Shown here: positions 2,725 through 14,560 of the stretch, one piece after another
Layout of the letters: each line of letters starts with the position of its first letter
Position numbering within the stretch: the first letter of the stretch is position 1
Origin: Flavobacterium franklandianum
GTDB taxonomy: Bacteria > Bacteroidota > Bacteroidia > Flavobacteriales > Flavobacteriaceae
DNA length: 64,000 nucleotides
NCBI RefSeq assembly: GCF_007097365.1
Contig: NZ_VJZR01000002.1
Location: forward strand, 391,464 to 455,463
Direction: 5' to 3'
Program-made: the position numbers and the translations under genes
The notes under the pieces: generated by a model
What the model saw: the letters and a program-made list of their open reading frames with translations, nothing else
What the model was told of the DNA's origin: nothing
Database searches by the model: none

Positions 2725-5700
2725 TTAAATTTTGTTTTCTTTGATTAATAATTTGGCGAATTTTTCAATAGTTGAATGTTTAAATACAGCAGAAAGAGGA
2801 ATTCGGATACCAGTTTTTTTCTGAATTTTAACGACTATGGTTACTGCAATAATAGAATGCCCTCCTATTTCAAAAAAGTTACTAAAAATATCAATACGTT
2901 CTTTTTTTAGATTTTCTTCCCAAATTTCCGCTACTAACTTTTCTTCATTTGTTCGAGGCGCAGTATATTCTTGGTTGCTTTCCGAATTGGATTTATATTC
3001 TAATAAAGCTGTTCGATCTACTTTATCATTAAGTGTAGTTGGCATTTTTTCTAAAATATGAAATTCGTGTGGCACCATAAATGCTGGTAATTGTGAGGCC
3101 AATTCATTTCGCCATAATCGAATCTCATCTAATTCGTTTTCTATTTCAGAATTTGTAATAATAAATGCAATAAGAATATCGGTTTTAGCTACAACAATAG
3201 CCAATTTAATACCGTCAATTGCCATTAAAGCAAGTTCTATTTCCCCAATTTCAATTCGATGACCTCTCACTTTAACTTGATGATCTATACGCCCAAGACA
3301 CACAACTTCATTGCTTGGGAGTAGTTTTCCTATGTCGCCTGAAAGATACATTATGTCACCTTTTTTATTTGTAAACTTATTCGGAATATATTTTTCGGAT
3401 GTTAACTCAGGTCTTCCTAAATACCCTTTTCCAACTCCAAGTCCACCAATAGCAATTTCTCCCACGGTGTTCGGCGGCAGCAGATTTAACTGGTCATCGA
3501 CTATATAATATTGCATGTTTGCAATAGGGGCTCCAACGGAAATCAATGTTTCTTCGGATTTTATATGTTTGCAAGAAGAAAAAATAGTGACTTCTGTTGG
3601 GCCATACAAATTCCAAAGTTCATCGCCTCTTTTTAATAGTTCCTTAGCAACCGGTACAGGAAGCGGCTCTCCACAACACCATATCTTTATAGGTAATTTT
3701 TTTGACCAACCAGCATCACAAAGCATCTGATAGGTGGTAGTCGTACCAACCATTAATGAAATTTTTTCCTTTTCTAGCATCTCATACAACAGGGTTCCAT
3801 CTTTCGATGTTTCGTGGTCAGGTAAAACTAAAGTAGCTCCTTTGAATAGAGGAAAAAATAATTCAAAACTCGCAATATCAAAAGAAATTGTTGAGATAAA
3901 TGGAACTCTATCAGTTTCTTTTATGCCAGGTTCATTTTCTAATGCAAAAAGTAGATTGACTACGTTTCTATTGGATATTTTAGCTCCTTTTGGTTTGCCA
4001 GTAGAACCGGATGTATACAAAAGGTATAATATATTTTCTGGGTTTACCTCGGTTGGAAGTTTTGTTGAAGGGTATTGCTCTAATGATGCCATAGCATCAT
4101 CTATTAATAAAGTATTGGAGCATTTAGGCAAGGTCAAAGACAGCGCTTTACTGGTTAGCAAAAATTTTGCTTCTGAGTCTTCTAACATATATTCAACTCG
4201 CTTTGCTGGATATTCGTGATCTAGAGGTAGATATGCTGCTCCACATTGGATAATTGCTAAAATGGAATATACTAATTCTGGACTACGTGGATAAGAAACT
4301 GCGATATAATCTCCAGATTGAACTCCTTGGGCAGATAAGAAATGCGCAAACTGATTCACTCTAATATGCAAATCGTGGTATGATATTTTTGTGTTATTGT
4401 ATTCAAGAGCAACATTATTAGGAGATATCTCGGCTTGTTTACACAGCAATTCTGACAATGAAATGTTAGGATATAACGTTTCTGTGTCATTCAATTTGTT
4501 ATAAATGTTTGTATAATCCTGAAAAATAATCTCTTGTAATGACTGAGCGGGGTTTTCGACTACTTTTTGTAATATCTGCTCAAATGCTCTCATCATTTTT
4601 TTGATGGTTTCGGGATTGAAAAGATTTTTATTATATGACCATTCAAATACAAGATTTTTATCTTTACCTGTTACGTTTAGAAAAATTTCGAAAGTTTCGA
4701 AAGATTTAGGATTGTTTTTCAACTCAAAGTTAAGATTTGAAAAAGAAACGCCATCTGTTATCCCAAGATCAACATTAAAAGTGATAGGCACGAGAGGTAT
4801 TCGTGAGGAATCACGGGGTACATTGAGTTTTTGTAAAAGATGACCAAAGCTTAGATGTTTATGATCGTCAGCGTCAAAAAGTTCTGTTTTTCGTTTTTTT
4901 AGATAGTCTATAAAACTGATATCCGGAGTGGGATTACTTCTTAAGGGTAATAAATTCACACAATGACCTATTAAATTATCCATCCCATTTGTAGGCTGTG
5001 CAGCTGATGGAACACCAACAACCAAATCATTCTGACCCGTTAATTGATATAATAGCACCTCAAAACCTGCCAATAAAGTTGTGACAAAACTAGCACCAAC
5101 GCTCAATCCTGTCTTTTTTAATGATGCCGATAGCTCAGAATCTAATGTAAAGTCTACACGAGCGCCATAATAAGTTCGTGGAGATGGTCTCGGATTATCT
5201 GTAGGAAGATTAACTTCAGGAATAGATTCCTTATATAAATTGATCCAATACTGTTCTATTTCTTTGTATTCATTACTATTAGAAAATAATATTTCATCAT
5301 TTGCAAAAGCACTAAAAGCGGTCGATTCTTCTAGTGTTGGTGTTTTATTTTCAACTAAAGCGGAATAAATTATCCCTAATTCTTGCAAAATAATACCTAT
5401 CGACCAACCGTCGCATATAATATGGTGTACTGTTAATATCAAACTATTTTTAACATCAGAAAATGCAATCAGACCAACTTTAATCAAAGGGCCATTAACA
5501 AGGTCAAAAATATAATGGGCTTCTTCATTTTTATAATGCTCAAATGCATCAATTTGAGACTTTTCATCCAAACTGGATAGATTGAGTTTGCTAATAGTTA
5601 TAGATAGTTGTTTGAAAATAGACATATAAACACCATCTATGCTAAAAGCAGCACGAAGTGACTCGTGGCGATTAACCAAAGTTTGAATTGCAAGTTCAAT

Positions 5701-5886
5701 TGCTGGAGTATCCAATGAGCCATCAAAATCTAGTGTGAACGACAGGTTATAGGCTCTGTTTGCATCATTTTCTCCGAAATAACAAGAAGTCCATATTTCA
5801 GATTGTGATTTTGTAGTATAAATGACCTTTTCTATTTCTGGACCTGCAAATGGATTAAATTGTGGGTTTTCTTCTAACTTGTTCAT
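2725..5886 (-). CDS. NRPS module C-A-PCP
   Basis: A complete 1053-residue single-module nonribosomal peptide synthetase. Residues about 20-450 form a condensation domain with HHIICDG at 154-160. Residues about 470-960 form an adenylation domain with A3 TSGSTGKPKG, A5 YGPTEVT, A8 around GRIDHQVKVRGHRIE and a degenerate A10 (LNDKVDR instead of NGKVDR, but the catalytic Lys is kept). Residues about 970-1053 are the carrier domain with the phosphopantetheine serine in IGGHS (Ser 1011). No epimerase, methyltransferase or thioesterase is present. A manual specificity code is D-I-F-V-W-C-L-I-F-K, which I do not recognise. It should accept the aminoacyl-ketide from the upstream PKS protein and pass a longer chain to the next module. 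The gene sits just downstream of an IS982 element that separates it from the loading gene, so its present promoter is unclear. Confidence 0.96.
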   Translation of the reverse strand: MNKLEENPQFNPFAGPEIEKVIYTTKSQSEIWTSCYFGENDANRAYNLSFTLDFDGSLDTPAIELAIQTLVNRHESLRAAFSIDGVYMSIFKQLSITISKLNLSSLDEKSQIDAFEHYKNEEAHYIFDLVNGPLIKVGLIAFSDVKNSLILTVHHIICDGWSIGIILQELGIIYSALVENKTPTLEESTAFSAFANDEILFSNSNEYKEIEQYWINLYKESIPEVNLPTDNPRPSPRTYYGARVDFTLDSELSASLKKTGLSVGASFVTTLLAGFEVLLYQLTGQNDLVVGVPSAAQPTNGMDNLIGHCVNLLPLRSNPTPDISFIDYLKKRKTELFDADDHKHLSFGHLLQKLNVPRDSSRIPLVPITFNVDLGITDGVSFSNLNFELKNNPKSFETFEIFLNVTGKDKNLVFEWSYNKNLFNPETIKKMMRAFEQILQKVVENPAQSLQEIIFQDYTNIYNKLNDTETLYPNISLSELLCKQAEISPNNVALEYNNTKISYHDLHIRVNQFAHFLSAQGVQSGDYIAVSYPRSPELVYSILAIIQCGAAYLPLDHEYPAKRVEYMLEDSEAKFLLTSKALSLTLPKCSNTLLIDDAMASLEQYPSTKLPTEVNPENILYLLYTSGSTGKPKGAKISNRNVVNLLFALENEPGIKETDRVPFISTISFDIASFELFFPLFKGATLVLPDHETSKDGTLLYEMLEKEKISLMVGTTTTYQMLCDAGWSKKLPIKIWCCGEPLPVPVAKELLKRGDELWNLYGPTEVTIFSSCKHIKSEETLISVGAPIANMQYYIVDDQLNLLPPNTVGEIAIGGLGVGKGYLGRPELTSEKYIPNKFTNKKGDIMYLSGDIGKLLPSNEVVCLGRIDHQVKVRGHRIEIGEIELALMAIDGIKLAIVVAKTDILIAFIITNSEIENELDEIRLWRNELASQLPAFMVPHEFHILEKMPTTLNDKVDRTALLEYKSNSESNQEYTAPRTNEEKLVAEIWEENLKKERIDIFSNFFEIGGHSIIAVTIVVKIQKKTGIRIPLSAVFKHSTIEKFAKLLIKENKI

Positions 5887-6015
5887 TGGTTTTTTTATTT
5901 TTTATTATAGGTATTTAAAAGTCATAAACTATTGTGATTTTTTAAACAACTTTTATTATTATTTGCTTTCTTCTGCTTTTTTCTTCAAATAGATATAAAT
6001 TCTTTTATAATTAAT

Positions 6016-7042
6016 GCGAATCAAGGGTTAAAATATTAAGTTTATAAAAGCGGAAGCGATTTTGCCAAAGATATGAATCAACAGTCCTTTGGCAGACCTC
6101 ACTTTACTAGCTCTTTGAATATCTGTTTTTTGAATTAGCCAATTAAATAATGACTCAATAGGTTGTCTAACTCTTGATACTGCTGTCGAAAACAAGTCAT
6201 TTGCAGCTTTGTCTCTATTTTTAATTTCTTGACACTGCCCTTTGATACCCTTGACTGGTGTCATCATAATTGAGTTTTTTTCTTGCTCTAATTCAGAAAA
6301 AAAATCTTGTTTATTATATATTTTATCTCCAAAGAAATTTCTGTTAGTTTTCTCAGACCAAGCTTCTTTGAAAACAGTTAAATCATTTACTGAGGCAGGA
6401 GTTATTTGAATTTCCTCAGGAAAAGGGATTTTATTTAAACGTCTAAAAGCCAATGCGTGTAATTTCACACCATAATAATACAGGTTTTTAGTAGAACAAT
6501 ATCCTTTGTCGGTTAGTTCTTTAGCCACTTTTGCATTACGCTTTCCTGAACAAGTGATTATTGGCATTGAATCCAGTAAACTTTGATCAGCAAAACAGTC
6601 AGAGGGTATAAAATCTTCAAACAACGAAGATGTAAAACGTCTAAAAGCTTCCGACAATTGGTTAAGCCGATTAGAAAAAGCAGTATATGAACCGAGTTTT
6701 GGAAACCAATCACGCAAATAATCACAAGCATAATTGTGAATTTGTTTGATGCTAAAGCGTTGTTCTTCTTGAACTGCAAATAGATAAATGGTCATAATTT
6801 CTTGGTCTGTTAAATCTTGCTTATCGTTGTTGCTAAAACGTTCGCAAGTATATTTTAAATCTTTTTCAAATCTGTCGCAGATTATTGAGTAGATTTTTAT
6901 TAATTTTAGGCCTTTAGGCTGATTAATCATATATTTAAATGTGCGTTAGATACACTATAAATATACTGATTATCAGCTTATTAAACTAATTATTTGAAAG
7001 ATATTTCTTTCCTTTTTATGCTTTTTTCAACCCTTGATTCGC
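6016..7042 (-). mobile_element. IS982-family insertion sequence, complete
   Basis: About 1.03 kb element with one transposase gene. Inverted ends are visible: gcgaatcaagggtt from 6016 on the left and its complement aacccttgattcgc ending at 7042 on the right. Outside them, ataatta occurs on the left (6007-6013) and on the right (7043-7049), which fits a target duplication of about 7-8 bp with some ambiguity in the exact ends. Size, single ORF and ends fit the IS982 family. It lies in the short intergenic space between two NRPS genes and is read in the same direction as them. The intact ORF and matching ends suggest a fairly recent insertion. Confidence 0.85.
6028..6930 (-). CDS. IS982-family transposase
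   Basis: A 300-residue protein of the usual length for IS982 transposases. The N-terminal half carries the family-type segment LTDQEIMTIYLF. The likely DDE catalytic residues are in FADQSLLDS (first Asp), FFGDKIYN (second Asp) and RQPIESLFNWL (Glu); the family-typical YYGVKLH follows the first Asp region. The frame is intact from ATG to stop, so it may be active. It lies wholly inside the element 6016-7042. Assignment is by family resemblance recognised by eye. Confidence 0.9.
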   Translation of the reverse strand: MINQPKGLKLIKIYSIICDRFEKDLKYTCERFSNNDKQDLTDQEIMTIYLFAVQEEQRFSIKQIHNYACDYLRDWFPKLGSYTAFSNRLNQLSEAFRRFTSSLFEDFIPSDCFADQSLLDSMPIITCSGKRNAKVAKELTDKGYCSTKNLYYYGVKLHALAFRRLNKIPFPEEIQITPASVNDLTVFKEAWSEKTNRNFFGDKIYNKQDFFSELEQEKNSIMMTPVKGIKGQCQEIKNRDKAANDLFSTAVSRVRQPIESLFNWLIQKTDIQRASKVRSAKGLLIHIFGKIASAFINLIF

Positions 7043-7150
7043 ATAATTATCTAAAGTTTATTGAAATTCTTGTTTTTTATATGTTCCAAATATAATATTC
7101 CTTAAAGTGAAAATTAGGATAAACGCAACTTTTGGAACGAATCGGTTAAA

Positions 7151-8443
7151 GGTGGGTTCTAAAAATTGATTTTTTTGATTTTTATATAAAACAAACCCCA
7201 TTTGTTTTATAGAAACTATTTTTTATCAGGCAAACCTAAATATATTTTTAATTTTCCGCCTCTAAAACCTAGTTATTTGGATAATTATCTATTTGATTGT
7301 TAGTTTTTTATATTTAAAATGTTTAGTCTAACTACTTGTTCATATCGGAATAAATTGTAGGTTAAATTGATTAATCCAATTATTCCAGTTGCTCTTACGA
7401 TTCCTATTGATTTCAATTTTAGACCATTCATACTTTGCTCCATAAAACCAAAAACGTGTTCTACTCTGGCTCGTGTTCTTGATTTTTCGGTGTTGCTTTT
7501 CTTTTGTACATCGGTTAACGGATTATTTCTGTACCCTTTTTCGTGAACTTTATTTATCATTTTATATTTCGTAATTGTTGCTTCTTGATTTTCGCCTGTA
7601 TATGCACTGTCAGCATACAATTCTTGACCTTCATCGTTTTGGTCTAACAAGTCATCGGTAGCTTGAGAATCGTGAACCGAAGCACTCGTTACAACAAAAG
7701 TGTTGATGAATTTACTTTTTGTATCCACTTTAGCGTGGTTTTTATAACCATAAAAATTCTCGTTGTTTTTCTTTGTCCAACGAGCATCAATGTCTTTGTG
7801 TGATTTTTTGTGGGGTTTGTCATTCCATAAGTCATCGCCTTCTCCCTTTTTTATCTTATCATTTTCCTCACGAGTATTGCGTTGGCGTGGTGCAATTGTA
7901 AAACTGGCATCTATCATTTGACCCTCGTTTAATATCAACTCTTTGGTTTCTAAAAAACTTTTAAATTGTGTAAACAAATCTTCTATAAGTCCTGATTTTG
8001 TTAGGTTTTCTCTAAAAGCCCATACTGTTTTCTCATCTGGAATTTTGTCTCCTGTATCTAATCCTAAAAAGTTTTTAAAACTTGTTCTGTCCAATATTTG
8101 GTATTCTACTTGCTTATCTCCAAGTCCGTAATATCGTTGTAAAATTAAGATTTTGAACATCAGAACTACATCAAACGGTTTTGCTCCGGCATTATTTTTC
8201 TTGGTTGTGTTTAGAAGTTTACTTTCTAATAACAATCTAAACATCTCAAAATCAATAATATTACTAATTTTATCTAACGGATTACCAATTTCCGACAATT
8301 TTTCAGCAGAAAATTGCTCGTCAAACAATGATTTCTTTCCTGTCGATTTGTATATTTGTTTACTCATACTTTTATCTGTCTTTTAAGTAATGAATATACG
8401 TATAATTACTTGAAAATCATATTTTTAATTTATAGAACTCCCC
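7151..8443 (-). mobile_element. IS5-family insertion sequence, complete
   Basis: About 1.29 kb element. Imperfect inverted ends: 7151-7169 begins ggtgggttct and the complement of 8425-8443 begins ggggagttct; about 15 of 19 positions match. The 4-bp sequence taaa flanks both sides (7147-7150 and 8444-8447), as expected for the 4-bp target duplications of many IS5 elements. It carries one intact transposase gene. The right end lies only 12 bp past the stop codon of the NRPS-PKS gene at 8456, so it just misses that coding sequence. Confidence 0.8.
7300..8367 (-). CDS. IS5-family transposase
   Basis: A 355-residue DDE transposase. The N-terminal region (residues about 50-125, with FDVVLMFKILILQRYYGLGD) is the DUF772-like part found in IS5 and related groups. 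Catalytic residues appear in GQMIDASF (Asp), ELYADSAYTG (Asp) and RARVEHVFGFMEQ (Glu). The frame is intact. It is encoded on the same strand as the flanking NRPS genes. It is unrelated in sequence to the IS982 transposase next door, so two independent insertions hit the same short intergenic space. Confidence 0.92.
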   Translation of the reverse strand: MSKQIYKSTGKKSLFDEQFSAEKLSEIGNPLDKISNIIDFEMFRLLLESKLLNTTKKNNAGAKPFDVVLMFKILILQRYYGLGDKQVEYQILDRTSFKNFLGLDTGDKIPDEKTVWAFRENLTKSGLIEDLFTQFKSFLETKELILNEGQMIDASFTIAPRQRNTREENDKIKKGEGDDLWNDKPHKKSHKDIDARWTKKNNENFYGYKNHAKVDTKSKFINTFVVTSASVHDSQATDDLLDQNDEGQELYADSAYTGENQEATITKYKMINKVHEKGYRNNPLTDVQKKSNTEKSRTRARVEHVFGFMEQSMNGLKLKSIGIVRATGIIGLINLTYNLFRYEQVVRLNILNIKN

Positions 8444-8455
8444 TAAAGTACTTTT

Positions 8456-11400
8456 TTATAAATTAATTTTAATATATCCTCCATTTTTACTAGAATCTTC
8501 GATAAACCAAGCTGGGTTTCCATCTTCATCTCGTCCCAATCTTGCGCCGGGAACTGGCGATTCATCTGCTATTATTTTTTGTTTTTTTTCTTGTTTAACA
8601 ACTCCATTTTTTTCAATTTGATTTTCATTCTTTAATTCAATTGAAACTTGAGGTTCTGTTTTTAAACCTGAAATTGAAAAAGTTTCATTTGTCGAATTGT
8701 TTTGATTGGTTTGTAATAAATCTATTTTTTGACTCAAAAGTTGAATTTGTTGAACAATTTGTTCTAATGAGATTTGATTTTGATTTGACGATAATGGAAT
8801 GTTATTTTTTAAAGAAAAAGACTCATTATTTTTGTCTAAAATCATTTCTTCCTCTTTGGTATGATTAGAGAGTCCTTCTTCAGGTGTGTTAGTGACGATA
8901 TAATCGGACAATAGCAAGGGTGAACTAAATGCTTCATTAAGCTGTCTAAATGTGATGGGTAAATCAAACTCTTTTTTAAATCTACCTGCTAATTGAGTTA
9001 GCGCTAATGAATCTAAACCTAGTTCTAGAAAAGTAGTAGAAACTGTATCAAACTCATAAATGATACCAGATACATTTTTTATGGTTTCTGAAATCTTAAG
9101 AAGTATTACATCTTTTCTCGAATCTTTTGTTTTGACACTATTGTTGTCAATACTTGCTGAGACTTCTGGTACATCAGAAACTGGTGATAGGTTTAAAACT
9201 TTAGGGTTTTTAACTACATTTATAGGATCTATCCAACAAAGTTTACGATCAAAAACATAACTTGGTAAATCGATTTTAAGCCTTTGTTGTTGATGATAAA
9301 AGGCATTCCAATCGGGGTCAATTCCTCTAAGCCACAGCTCACCTAAAGTACCGAGTAAGGAATGGTATTCGGTTTCTTGATTTTTAGGTAAGAGTAAACT
9401 TGTAAAGGCAGGAATTATTTTACCAGTTCCTTGTTGTTTTGTCAAAGTAGTTAACGTTTGTCCTGGCCCCACTTCTAAAAACATAATGTCTTCTAATTTT
9501 AATAATGTGTTCGCAGCATCAGAAAATCTTACAGTTTTGCGTAAATGGTTAGTCCAGTATTTTGGATCGATGGCTTCTTCTTCCAAGAGCCATGTCCCTG
9601 TAACAGTCGAAACTATTGGTAAAAATGGCTTGTTTAAATGTATTTTTTTTACCTCTTTTTCAAATGAATCCAAAATTGGGTCCATCATTTTTGAGTGAAA
9701 TGCATGACTTGTAAATAACAACTTGTTTGCAATCTCCATCTGTTCTAATGATTTTGCAAATTCATTAACCTTTTCATCTTCACCAGAAACAACGCATATA
9801 GCATTAGAATTTATGGCCGCTATCGACAGGGTGTCTGGAAGAATATTTTTTAATTTATCTTCAGCTAGCCTTACGGATAACATGCTTCCCCCGGGAAGCT
9901 CACTTACCAATCGACCTCTTGTGGCTATTAAATGCAATGCATCTTGTAAATTAAATATTCCAGCTAAGTGGGCTGCTACAAATTCACCAATACTGTGGCC
10001 GCAGAATGCAGTAGGCTTAATTCCCCAACTTAACCAAAGTTGCGATAAAGCATATTCAGTGACAAATAAAGCAGGCTGTGTGAAACGAGTATCTTTCAAT
10101 TTTGCCTCGGCTTCGGGTGTAACTATTTCTGGGTATAAAATTTCACGAATGTCTAATTTTAGTTCGTCCAATAAAAACTCAGCACAAATATCTACTGCTT
10201 CTTTAAATATAATTTCATTTTTGTAAAGGTTTATTCCCATTTGAGAAAATTGAGATCCTTGTCCTGGGAATAAAAATACAAGTTCGTTTGGAGCTACTTT
10301 TAATATGGAAGTTTTTATAGTATTCTTTTCATTAGAAAGCATTTCTTGGCTTGCATCAACGCAGTTGCTTGATAATAGAAAGTTTCTATGAATAAAAGTG
10401 TCACGGGTTTTATTCAGTGAATAGCCAACGTCTGCCAATAATGAATCGGGTTTTGATTGAAGAAATTTACCTAATTCAGTTGCATACCCTTTTAAGCTAT
10501 TTTCAGATTTGGCGGACCACATCAGTAATTGGAGTGGTCGACTTGAACTTGAAACTTTTTGCTCAGTAGGATATTCTTCAACAATAAGATGTACATTAGT
10601 TCCGCCAACTCCAAACGAACTTACACCGGCTCTTAGAGGTGCATCGGAATCCCAATTGCGTAATTTAGCATTTACAAAAAACGGACTGTTTTCAAAATCT
10701 ATAGCAGGATTGGGTTTTTCAAAACCTAGTGAGGCGGGTATAAGTTTGTTGTTCATGGCCAAGATTGTTTTAATCAATCCTGCTACACCAGCTGCTGCAG
10801 TAAGATGACCCATATTAGTTTTTATAGATCCTATTGCGCAATAACCATTTTTAGATTGTTTGCCATATGCTATTTTTAGACCTTCAATTTCTATAGGATC
10901 ACCAATAGGAGTTGCAGTTCCGTGTGTTTCTACATAACTTATAGAATCTGGTGTAACTTTTGCATCAAAGAGCGCCTCACTAATTGCAGCAGCTTGTCCT
11001 TCGGCACTTGGAGCGGTAAAACTTCCTTTGTTGCCTCCGTCATTCGAAATCCCTATCCCTTTGATTATCCCATATATTTTGTCACCATCATTGATAGCAC
11101 TTTCCAGACTTTTTAGGAGCACAACTCCAGCTCCGTCACTAAATACAGTTCCTTTACCTGCTGCGTCAAAAGCGCGACAATGACCATCGGCGCTTAACAT
11201 TGAACCTTCTTCATACAAATGGCCACTAAAAATTGGCGCTGTTACACTTGATGCCCCAGCTAGTGCAATGTCACACTGCCCATTTCTAATGGCTTGTACA
11301 GCTTGTGCAATAGCAAGTAGAGAAGTGGAACAAGCGGAATGAATACTAACAGCTGGACCTTTTATATTCAAGTGATAAGCAGTTCTTGTAGCAATATAAT

Positions 11401-13699
11401 CTTTGTCGTTAACAGTTTCTGCTTGGAAATACCCTATTTGATCTAAAATTTCATTGTCAGGAAGTATATTTTTCTTGTAATATGTATTCGTTCCGGTACC
11501 AGCATAGACACCTATGCGCCCATTATAATGTTTTGGTAAATATCCCTTTTGCTCAAGAGCCTCCCACGAAATTTCCAAAAATAATCGCTGTTGTGGATCC
11601 ATTACTTCGGCTAACTTGGGGTTGATTCCAAAAAAAGCAGCATCGAATGTATTTGCATTTTGTATAATTCCTCGAGCACCTACATAAAGGGGATTATTTC
11701 TTATTGATTCTGGAATACTTACATCAATTTCTTCAGATTTAAAAAAGGAAATCGTTTCTTTTCCTTCTTTTAAAATGTCCCAAAGTTCTCCAACGGATGC
11801 TGCTCCTGGGAATCTTCCAGCCATACCAATAATGGCAACATCACTTGAAGATTTTTCATCTTCCCTTTTCGAGTAATCAATTACGTTTTGCGACTTATTT
11901 TGAACGGCTAAATATTCAGATAATGTTGCAATGGTTGGGTATCGATATAAATTTGAAACGGATATATTTTCACTAAGGCATTTTCTCAGTATAGTTACTA
12001 TTCGTTGTGTTAAGATCGATGTTCCTCCCATTTCAAAAAAATTATCGTCTATACCAACAACTGGCAGCTTAAGTTCTTCAATCCAAACTTTTGCAATTTC
12101 TTTTTCAATTGCTGTTCGTGGTTTTCTTAAAAGTGGTGCTGAATCTGGTCGAACATATTCTGGAAGAGGTAAGTTTTTTTTGTCAATTTTACCATTTGGA
12201 GTTATCGGAAATTCATCTATCCAAATATATCTAGAGGGTAATAAAATTTCAGGTAAAATTTTTGAAAGTGCATTATGAATTTGCTTTTCATCCTTTGATA
12301 GTTCACTAGATTTCAAATACGCAATAATTTTAGCTTCATTTCCTAAATAATCACTCACAATTACTGCAGATTGTATTATACCATCAATACTATTAAGTGT
12401 AGCTTCTATTTCACCTAATTCTATACGATGACCTCTAATTTTTACTTGATGATCTATACGACCTAAACATTGCAATTCACCATTTGGTAATAGCTTCCCT
12501 AAGTCTCCAGTACGATACATAATAGAATTAGGCTCAGTCGAAAATTGATTTGGAATGAATTTTTCAGCGGTAAGTTCAGCGCGTTTCCAATAGCCTTGTG
12601 CGACCCCATCTCCACCAATTACTATTTCTCCAATTGATCCTGAGGCAACTGCCTGTCCTACTTCGTCTAATAAATAGATTTGAGTGTTTGCGATAGGAAA
12701 TCCAATTGTAATTAATTCATCATCTGCTTGAATTTGTTTTACAGCCGACCAAATTGTTGTTTCTGTTGGACCATACATATTCCAAAGTGAATCACATCTT
12801 GAAATTAGCTTTCGTGCAAGATTCAATGGCATCGCTTCGCCACCACAAAGAGCTTTTAACGTTAGTGGGTTTTCCCAGCCTGAATCAAGAAGTAATTGCC
12901 AGGTTGTTGGTGTGGCTTGAAGGATTGTAATTCCTTTATTTTGTATAAAATCTAATAAGAGCTGGCCATCACGCGTAGTTTCGTAATCAACAAAAACCAC
13001 TGTCGCTCCTTCTAGTAGTGGAAGAAATAATTCTAAACCCGAAATGTCAAATGAAATAGTCGTAATTGATGCTAATTTGTCATTCCTATTGATCCCAGGT
13101 TCAGCGCTCATGCTACTAAGAAAGTTAACTAAATTTTTATGAGTTACGGTAACTCCTTTGGGTTTACCCGTGGAGCCTGAAGTATAAATGATGTAAATAA
13201 CAGCTTCGTTCGAAACGGCAACAGAAATAGGTAGGGAAGAATATTGGTCTAGTTCCGATAATAGGTCCTCGATCCATATCATTTTTGAATGATTCGGTAG
13301 TGAAGTTGAAATTGATTTTGAAGTTAGCAAAAAATTAGCTTCAGAATCTTCGAGCATAAATTCTAAACGTGTTGTCGGAAATTTTGAATCTAAAGGTAAA
13401 TAGGCAGCTCCACATTTTAAAATAGCAAATAATGAAGCGGTTAATTCCGGTGTTCTATCTAAAGAAACCGCTACGATTTGGCCTGGTCGCAAACCCTGAG
13501 ACCAAAAATAATTTGCCATTTGGTTTGCTATTGTATTTAATTCGGCATAACTAACTTGCTTATCTTCAAATTCAAGTGCTATTGAATTTGGATGTATTTC
13601 TGACTGCTCTGTAAAAAGATCATGTATAGTACTATTTGGATACGCCATTTGGGGTCCTCTTATTTCATTTTCAATAGGATTGTTATCTGGGCTTTTCAT
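8456..13699 (-). CDS. Hybrid NRPS-PKS loading protein A-PCP-KS-AT-ACP
   Basis: A 1747-residue megasynthase. Adenylation domain about 20-515 (A3 TSGSTGKPKG near 173, A5 YGPTETT, A10 PNGKIDKK); carrier domain with Ser 561 in MGGTS; ketosynthase about 620-1045 with active Cys 790 in SACSTSL and the two His in HGTAT and NMGHLTAAAG; acyltransferase about 1140-1440 with Ser 1236 in GHSIGE and HAFHS at 1332-1336, the malonyl-type signature; acyl carrier with Ser 1564 in GLDSL. No KR, DH or ER is present, so a beta-keto group should be kept. The protein lacks a condensation domain and begins in the linker that normally precedes an A domain, which marks it as the chain-starting unit. The manual specificity code D-I-L-Q-L-G-M-I-W-K resembles the remembered glycine code. 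The C-terminal tail with GRDEDGNPAWFIED resembles linkers after carrier domains in other hybrid synthases. It is the first gene of the locus in transcription order. Confidence 0.96.
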   Translation of the reverse strand: MKSPDNNPIENEIRGPQMAYPNSTIHDLFTEQSEIHPNSIALEFEDKQVSYAELNTIANQMANYFWSQGLRPGQIVAVSLDRTPELTASLFAILKCGAAYLPLDSKFPTTRLEFMLEDSEANFLLTSKSISTSLPNHSKMIWIEDLLSELDQYSSLPISVAVSNEAVIYIIYTSGSTGKPKGVTVTHKNLVNFLSSMSAEPGINRNDKLASITTISFDISGLELFLPLLEGATVVFVDYETTRDGQLLLDFIQNKGITILQATPTTWQLLLDSGWENPLTLKALCGGEAMPLNLARKLISRCDSLWNMYGPTETTIWSAVKQIQADDELITIGFPIANTQIYLLDEVGQAVASGSIGEIVIGGDGVAQGYWKRAELTAEKFIPNQFSTEPNSIMYRTGDLGKLLPNGELQCLGRIDHQVKIRGHRIELGEIEATLNSIDGIIQSAVIVSDYLGNEAKIIAYLKSSELSKDEKQIHNALSKILPEILLPSRYIWIDEFPITPNGKIDKKNLPLPEYVRPDSAPLLRKPRTAIEKEIAKVWIEELKLPVVGIDDNFFEMGGTSILTQRIVTILRKCLSENISVSNLYRYPTIATLSEYLAVQNKSQNVIDYSKREDEKSSSDVAIIGMAGRFPGAASVGELWDILKEGKETISFFKSEEIDVSIPESIRNNPLYVGARGIIQNANTFDAAFFGINPKLAEVMDPQQRLFLEISWEALEQKGYLPKHYNGRIGVYAGTGTNTYYKKNILPDNEILDQIGYFQAETVNDKDYIATRTAYHLNIKGPAVSIHSACSTSLLAIAQAVQAIRNGQCDIALAGASSVTAPIFSGHLYEEGSMLSADGHCRAFDAAGKGTVFSDGAGVVLLKSLESAINDGDKIYGIIKGIGISNDGGNKGSFTAPSAEGQAAAISEALFDAKVTPDSISYVETHGTATPIGDPIEIEGLKIAYGKQSKNGYCAIGSIKTNMGHLTAAAGVAGLIKTILAMNNKLIPASLGFEKPNPAIDFENSPFFVNAKLRNWDSDAPLRAGVSSFGVGGTNVHLIVEEYPTEQKVSSSSRPLQLLMWSAKSENSLKGYATELGKFLQSKPDSLLADVGYSLNKTRDTFIHRNFLLSSNCVDASQEMLSNEKNTIKTSILKVAPNELVFLFPGQGSQFSQMGINLYKNEIIFKEAVDICAEFLLDELKLDIREILYPEIVTPEAEAKLKDTRFTQPALFVTEYALSQLWLSWGIKPTAFCGHSIGEFVAAHLAGIFNLQDALHLIATRGRLVSELPGGSMLSVRLAEDKLKNILPDTLSIAAINSNAICVVSGEDEKVNEFAKSLEQMEIANKLLFTSHAFHSKMMDPILDSFEKEVKKIHLNKPFLPIVSTVTGTWLLEEEAIDPKYWTNHLRKTVRFSDAANTLLKLEDIMFLEVGPGQTLTTLTKQQGTGKIIPAFTSLLLPKNQETEYHSLLGTLGELWLRGIDPDWNAFYHQQQRLKIDLPSYVFDRKLCWIDPINVVKNPKVLNLSPVSDVPEVSASIDNNSVKTKDSRKDVILLKISETIKNVSGIIYEFDTVSTTFLELGLDSLALTQLAGRFKKEFDLPITFRQLNEAFSSPLLLSDYIVTNTPEEGLSNHTKEEEMILDKNNESFSLKNNIPLSSNQNQISLEQIVQQIQLLSQKIDLLQTNQNNSTNETFSISGLKTEPQVSIELKNENQIEKNGVVKQEKKQKIIADESPVPGARLGRDEDGNPAWFIEDSSKNGGYIKINL

Positions 13700-14560
13700 T
13701 TTAAGTACATTAAAATTAAATTTATTTACTGTTTTTTAATAAGTTAATAATAGGCTACTTATCATGGTAAATCAACACAAAAAAAAGAAAAATATTTCAC
13801 TAATACTTGCATTTTCTATATAAAGCTATAAAAATCGTTGAATAGCATATTTTTATATTAGGTCTATTTTTTTTTATAATTGACAATAAACTTTTGAAGT
13901 TAATTATTTGGGGTAATTTTTTTAAGCAACTACTAAATTTTTTACAGATGAATATTTTGTTTGATTTATCCTTAATGGTTTATTTTTTTTCCTTCGGATC
14001 AGACCAGTTTTCTAATCCGTTTTGTGTTTTGAAAATTAAAATTCAACTTTTGTTACAATTATATCTTTCTCAAAAAAAATATGTTCAATTGTGGAAATAT
14101 TTCTAGATAAAGGTTTTTTCTTGTTTTTTGCATAAATAGTTTAAAGCCAGCATAGTACTTGTTAATTAAAATATGAAATATCTAATTAAACGCCCTAATT
14201 ATTATGGAATAAAAACAATATTCACATATATTTTAAAATTTAAATAAAAAGAGTTTGCCAGTACAATTATTTAAATAAAACAACGTTATTTTGTAAATAT
14301 TAAGTAGTTCATCGAAGATATATGATTATCATCCTGATTTTTTTTTAAAACATAAGTAATGTCTTATAATGTTTTTTTTAAAAGGAAACTATTAACATTA
14401 TCATTGTGTTTCCCGTATTGCTTAACGTAAGTAAAATATCATTAATAATACTATTTTAGTGTATTTAATCGGATATATTAGAATTTTGTCGGTTTTATTT
14501 TTTTAATTAAATAATTTTGTATTAGAAATAAATGCAAATTAATTAAAGCCCCCAAAAATC
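13700..14560. other. Divergent intergenic region, 861 bp, no gene seen
   Basis: This AT-rich stretch separates the minus-strand NRPS-PKS locus from the plus-strand secreted-protein operon and must hold the promoters of both. On the plus side a TAnnTTTG-like box lies at 14512-14519. On the minus side I find no clear flavobacterial promoter upstream of 13699. A short open frame at 13894-14106 has no credible protein features and low-complexity composition. Confidence 0.6.
14486..14519 (+). promoter_or_regulatory. Candidate flavobacterial promoter for the secreted-protein operon
   Basis: TTTG at 14485-14488 and TAATTTTG at 14512-14519 are separated by 23 bp, within the spacing described for flavobacterial TTG / TAnnTTTG promoters but at its upper end. 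The start codon at 14561 would follow a leader of about 35 nt. Confidence 0.4.

Follow-up and report, generated by a model that had tools for sequence, protein, structure and literature searches.

Two insertion sequences, one of the IS5 and one of the IS982 family, were inserted by two independent transposition events into the junction between the first and second protein genes (p4 and p1) of an NRPS/PKS operon in the window, by which we mean the whole stretch of 64,000 nucleotides that was analyzed, part of a 3.8-Mb draft genome of 38 contigs (Table 1). Both transposase genes are open and have the same orientation as the operon (minus strand). We favor, with a probability of about 0.5, a reading in which transcription continues through both elements into the late modules, probably with the help of an outward promoter in the IS5 element, an effect on expression that we infer from sequence. 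The sequence-only reading had placed two elements between p4 and p1, with intact transposases, paired ends and candidate target duplications, and both proved to be real: each has a transposase encoded by a single open ORF, paired ends and a target duplication (TAAA for IS5, AATTA for IS982). Only 12 bp separate the p4 stop codon from the IS5 end. The spacer between the elements is 106 bp rather than the 108 bp given before, as the bounds of one element had to be corrected. Beyond p3 lie an A-T-TE gene (866 aa) and then a phosphopantetheinyl transferase gene.

Table 1 Features of the p4-p1 junction and its neighbors, listed in operon direction
Feature	Positions	Strand
Upstream gene p4: hybrid A-T-KS-AT-T, 1747 aa, open	8456-13699	-
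TAAA target duplication of IS5, copy 1	8444-8447	
IS5-family element, 1293 bp	7151-8443	-
IS5 transposase ORF, 355 aa	7300-8367	-
TAGGTTTG, match to TAnnTTTG (flavobacterial -7 box), oriented toward the downstream NRPS genes, IS5 tip 80 bp away	7231-7238	-
TAAA target duplication of IS5, copy 2	7147-7150	
Non-IS spacer, 106 bp (duplication copies make up its first 5 and last 4 bp)	7045-7150	
AATTA target duplication of IS982, copy 1	7045-7049	
IS982-family element, 1031 bp	6014-7044	-
IS982 transposase ORF, 300 aa	6028-6930	-
AATTA target duplication of IS982, copy 2	6009-6013	
Additional non-IS DNA, with nothing corresponding to it in the gap of the nearest relative	5953-6008	
Original intergenic DNA 5' of p1, aligning with the 81-bp gap of L025	5887-5952	
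Downstream gene p1: C-A-T module, 1053 aa, open	2725-5886	-
Start of p3: C-A-T-TE, 1327 aa, extending past the window edge (domains from domain search)	1-2520	-

The IS5 transposase scored 277.1 bits against NF033581 (curated cut-off 140), which places it in the IS5 family, and contains the motifs IDASF, ADSAY, and RVEHVFG, which we take to be the IS5 catalytic motifs. The short inverted ends GGTGGGTTC / GGGGAGTTC, together with the short TAAA duplication, fit the family. The bounds 7151-8443 were kept unchanged, given TAAA on both sides and a copy with 85% identity that aligns over query positions 1-1293. This full-length copy comes from another genome of the genus (G180), and its flanks show no matching 4-bp duplication. 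Matches to the IS5 element were found in 38 of the 299 genus genomes (own included), most of them short; three other genus genomes have longer partial matches (67-71% identity), and the own genome holds this one copy.

For the IS982 transposase, the best NCBIfam model was IS982 (NF033520; 123.5 bits, 6.5 below the curated cut-off of 130), and the Pfam models DDE_Tnp_1 and DDE_Tnp_1_3 were above their cut-offs. The protein contains the motifs LDSMP, GDKIY, and QPIESLF, presumably the IS982 catalytic motifs. Because AT precedes GCGAATCAAGGG in 28 of 29 end matches (three internal matches excluded; L092 is a repeat of L004), we set the bounds to 6014-7044; the element proposed earlier at 6016-7042 stands, with each end moved outward by 2 bp. 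The 20-nt inverted ends then lie at 6014-6033 and 7025-7044, and the 5-bp duplication AATTA is perfect. A second copy in the same genome (G000:C32), itself without a perfect duplication, differs at 6 of 1031 bases, so the element boundaries are not due to chance. Nine full-length copies, from 10 loci, carry a 5-bp duplication in six cases, a 6-bp duplication in one, and none in two, and the identical flanks of L088 and L089 may represent one event. Matches at E <= 0.001 occur in 41 of the 299 genus genomes (own included), many of them short. The best plasmid matches to the transposase are 44% identical and annotated merely as transposase; among the matches listed, plasmid relatives annotated as IS982 are ~30% identical. 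G002, a relative with a 2.4-Mb genome, has seven IS982 pieces 94-98% identical to the window copy (C34, C14, C37, C28, C16, C65, and C4), two of which begin at the first base of a contig; the IS982 of the window and of G002 is likely a recent shared element. IS982 elements are also among those reported in F. columnare and F. psychrophilum (PMC5395568).

To compare the junction with that of relatives, we used 37 loci encoding a homologue of the p4 C-terminus, from genome collections with one genome per species. The 18 close loci (L025-L042, 46-70%) comprise 16 titled Flavobacterium, one Flavobacteriaceae bacterium, and one Klebsiella pneumoniae. In these 18 and in G015 (= L024), i.e., in 19 of 19 close relatives, a C-domain gene directly follows p4 on the same strand after a gap of 52-85 bp, taking the most upstream start (at most 114 bp with an alternative start). 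Such gaps are too short for any IS, so every one of these relatives has an empty site, and the IS pair is absent from the p4-p1 junction in all of them. This is the empty site that the sequence-only reading had proposed to look for in related strains, here found by genome comparison, and it agrees with the earlier view that p4 and p1 were probably one operon: adjacency, strand, and spacing together support one ancestral operon, as predicted from sequence. The 19 distant loci have gaps of -95 to 49 bp in 16 cases and of 927 bp in L044, where the gap contains a Cupin_8-type gene (296 aa); two have no gap value.

The nearest relative is L025 (CALPPA020000082.1), titled a Klebsiella pneumoniae metagenome bin, at 70% in the p4 C-terminus and 83% in the first 384 aa of p1; its gap is 81 bp, and it is probably mislabeled or part of a mixed bin. 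The gene extends 1.4 kb or more past the match in 18 of the 19 distant loci. The p4 relative in Tamlana (L044, 5612-12205) carries a class-III aminotransferase domain ahead of the same C-terminal tail (GNPAWFIED); p4 of Flavobacterium is without this domain and keeps the tail.

Each element has its own target duplication (TAAA and AATTA, respectively), which indicates two separate insertions, and a single duplication around the whole IS5-IS982 unit is absent. That the two arrived together, or that the pair mobilizes the DNA between them as a composite unit, is very improbable: the short distance (106 bp) and a spacer that is lacking from the gap of the nearest relative would fit this, but the duplications are separate and perfect, the families and tips differ, and IS5 is single-copy in the genome while the second IS982 copy has no IS5 beside it. 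Still less credible is an assembly artefact at a repeat, which the draft state of the genome and the repeated IS982 might suggest; both elements lie inside a 507-kb contig, and an artefact would not be expected to create a duplication at each element. As to the order of events, the gene after p4 in L025 is 82.8% identical to p1 and 67.0% identical to p3 over its first 384 aa, and the C domains of p1 and p3 are 69.0% identical. Since this nearest relative already has a p1-type gene behind an 81-bp gap, the IS insertions came later; p1 and p3 thus probably split first and the elements followed, a dating that uses identities rather than a tree and an L025 contig that ends within the p1-type gene.

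With both elements and one copy of each duplication removed, 236 bp remain, close to the ~250 bp estimated before, compared with ~80 bp in L025. Given the gaps of 52-85 bp in the 19 relatives, ~160 of the 236 bp are extra DNA (7045-7150 and 5953-6008), which is AT-rich. Immediately before p1, ~60 bp can be aligned with the L025 gap (equalled by 1 of 300 shuffles), and the first dozen bp past the p4 stop resemble it; the spacer does not match it (equalled by 210/300). In a comparison of the joined junction with the p1-p3 gap, the whole was equalled by 66 of 300 shuffles, the spacer by 71/300, and the last 75 bp by 14/300. The extra DNA returned only short weak matches in the own genome and no clear homologue in the 299 genus genomes (own included); 286 of the 299 reach E <= 0.1, but the best match outside the window is 39 bases at 90%, in line with AT-rich chance. 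A third element as the source of the ~160 bp was rejected, with no clear homologue in either search.

The full flavobacterial promoter pattern is TTG followed after 17-23 bp by TAnnTTTG. Neither strand of 5887-8455 contains it, but this silence is weak evidence because the same scan is also silent on the operon strand of 13700-14560, the expected site of the operon's own promoter. With one mismatch allowed, three plus-strand sites and none on the operon strand were found in 5887-8455, and sigma-70-type sites numbered 12 against 14.2 expected. The main sigma factor of F. psychrophilum has TAnnTTTG as its -7 consensus (PMC9723704), and this box occurs three times on the minus strand of the region: in the non-coding 3' end of IS5 (7231-7238), in the spacer (7087-7094), and within the IS982 transposase gene (6066-6073). 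This number is within chance (1.7 expected; at least three in 23% of simulations). The non-coding ends of the two elements have no TAnnTTTG box besides that at 7231-7238. Lying 80 bp from the transposase-distal tip, this box would correspond to the -7 box of an IS1168/IS1169-type promoter; no TTG, i.e., no -33 element, lies 17-23 bp upstream. Between box and tip, the IS5 end also has an AT-rich inverted repeat with 15-bp arms (7181-7215), with no T run after it on the minus strand.

The position of the box is shared among IS5 elements with a recognizable tip. TA..TTT followed by G or A sits 79-82 bp from the tip in the window IS5, the Flavobacterium copies of G180 and G236, IS1169, and IS1168, whose aligned interiors are 65-82% identical (gap-tolerant alignment). 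It is the only pattern of its shape common to the five, and 0 of 1000 shuffles share any, a figure uncorrected for common descent; no contiguous 5-mer is common to the five. Among 33 IS5 loci scanned, 18 have no tip match, 11 have a tip with 2-3 mismatches, and four have a tip with 0-1 mismatch. The box is 80-82 bp away in these four (L062, which is the window, L064, L129, and L130) and 79 bp away in L063; the remaining 28 (no tip, or 2-3 mismatches) were left out of the five-element comparison, and one locus with 2-3 tip mismatches (L132, 55% identical) has the box at a different distance.

The IS5 and IS982 families are both named among those with confirmed outward promoters, with IS1168 and IS1169 listed with nim genes and IS1187 with cfiA (PMC9330008). 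On the Bacteroides fragilis plasmid pBFO18_1, the corresponding end of IS1169 points toward nimD, which is encoded on the same strand 175 bp past the transposase stop; the IS1168 record, in which the gene table is incomplete, lists no co-oriented gene past that end. The idea that IS promoters act from the 5' side of the transposase is wrong for IS1169, as nimD lies past its 3' end on the same strand. Of the earlier suggestion that the IS ends may provide new promoters, the IS5 half gains indirect support, from the shared box position and the IS1169-nimD layout, and the IS982 half gains none; its only box is inside the transposase gene. The sequence comparisons lend modest support to the idea of an outward promoter in the IS5 end, which is plausible but has no -33 element.

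In the reading we favor, the two operon-oriented elements were inserted at the junction of the first (A-T-KS-AT-T) and second (C-A-T) protein genes, and transcription of the late modules would continue by reading through both of them. It would probably be assisted by an outward promoter in the IS5 3' end (box 7231-7238), as with IS1168/IS1169 and the nim genes that follow them; a transcript from this promoter would cross the IS982 transposase gene, located in between, before reaching p1. The same promoter might instead make IS5 a mobile promoter, with the NRPS operon divided into two transcription units: the late modules would be driven independently of the loading protein, and the IS982 transposase gene would be part of the new transcript, a reading that we consider unlikely. 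A possible, though also rather unlikely, course is that the elements brought no promoter and are neutral passengers that the long operon transcript simply traverses. Their co-orientation with the operon, a number of terminator-like sites at chance level (one found, 6470-6455 on the operon strand, against 1.0 expected), the lack of a full promoter match, and the open downstream genes would all fit this, but the box position common to the IS5 tips compared and the IS1169-nimD arrangement suggest more than passive DNA.

IS insertions are known to be polar, and an insert of ~2.3 kb that halts transcription would leave the second and later modules unmade and the cluster dead. The sequence-only reading had suggested that the elements may silence the downstream modules, and this polarity, the long insertion separating the first gene of the operon from the later ones, the terminator-like site on the operon strand, and the lack of a full promoter between the elements and p1 speak for it. 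Against it, that one terminator-like site is what chance would give, both elements run in operon direction, and none of p1, p3, the A-T-TE gene, and the phosphopantetheinyl transferase gene shows decay: all are open, and their domain sets are complete, although decay would not yet be visible after a recent insertion. Between p1 and L025, dN/dS is 0.16 over 384 shared codons, a value reflecting the whole divergence and not the time since insertion. On sequence, silencing of the downstream genes is unproven, and we hold it to be improbable.

A literature search listed no report of this locus. The pair of insertions is well documented but of an ordinary type, in known IS families; what the analysis adds is the empty-site comparison, the separate duplications, the insertion after the p1/p3 split, and the box common to IS5 tips. 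At this locus, two IS insertions can be seen cleanly at a single conserved junction of an operon and timed against relatives, and the IS5 end, with its shared -7 box directed at biosynthetic genes and not at a resistance gene, lends itself to testing. Mining of this cluster should allow for an operon that is possibly interrupted or rewired between the first and the second protein.

Gene pairs of A-T-KS-AT-T and C-A-T-TE in Flavobacterium, for instance in F. soyae, F. hibernum, and F. defluvii, have a related first protein and the same junction. They differ from the window in the gene after p4, which has a tail resembling TE: in all 17 loci with a complete gene (L025 and L032, whose genes run off contigs, excluded), it encodes 1319-1336 aa and its tail is 65-69% identical to the TE part of p3, whereas p1 is C-A-T without TE. 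F. aquicola (L027) has two consecutive C-A-T-TE genes after p4. The window differs also in the additional A-T-TE gene after p3 (G000:C22:387338-389938). Read from sequence, the TE-less p1 and the additional A-T-TE gene point to an assembly line that grew by gaining modules. The IS elements were rejected as the cause, as L025, judged by identities, already has the p1-type gene and the 81-bp gap.

With other members of its family, the IS982 element has in common a single DDE transposase ORF, paired ends, and the 5-bp duplication of most full-length copies; it differs in the transposase score just under the curated cut-off. IS1187 of Bacteroides is another member of the IS982 family (PMC9330008). 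The best-scoring named plasmid relatives of the IS5 element are IS1168 and IS1169, with proteins ~55% identical over 96-97% of the query, the tip GAACCCACC/GAACTCACC, and a TAnnTTT[GA] box 82 bp from the transposase-distal tip, compared with 80 bp in the window; in one record, that of IS1169, the box-bearing end likewise points at a co-oriented gene. The DNA identity, however, is only ~69% over 443 bp, IS1169 has a TTG 20 bp before the box whereas the window IS5 has none there, and in the window a second IS separates the IS5 end from the gene.
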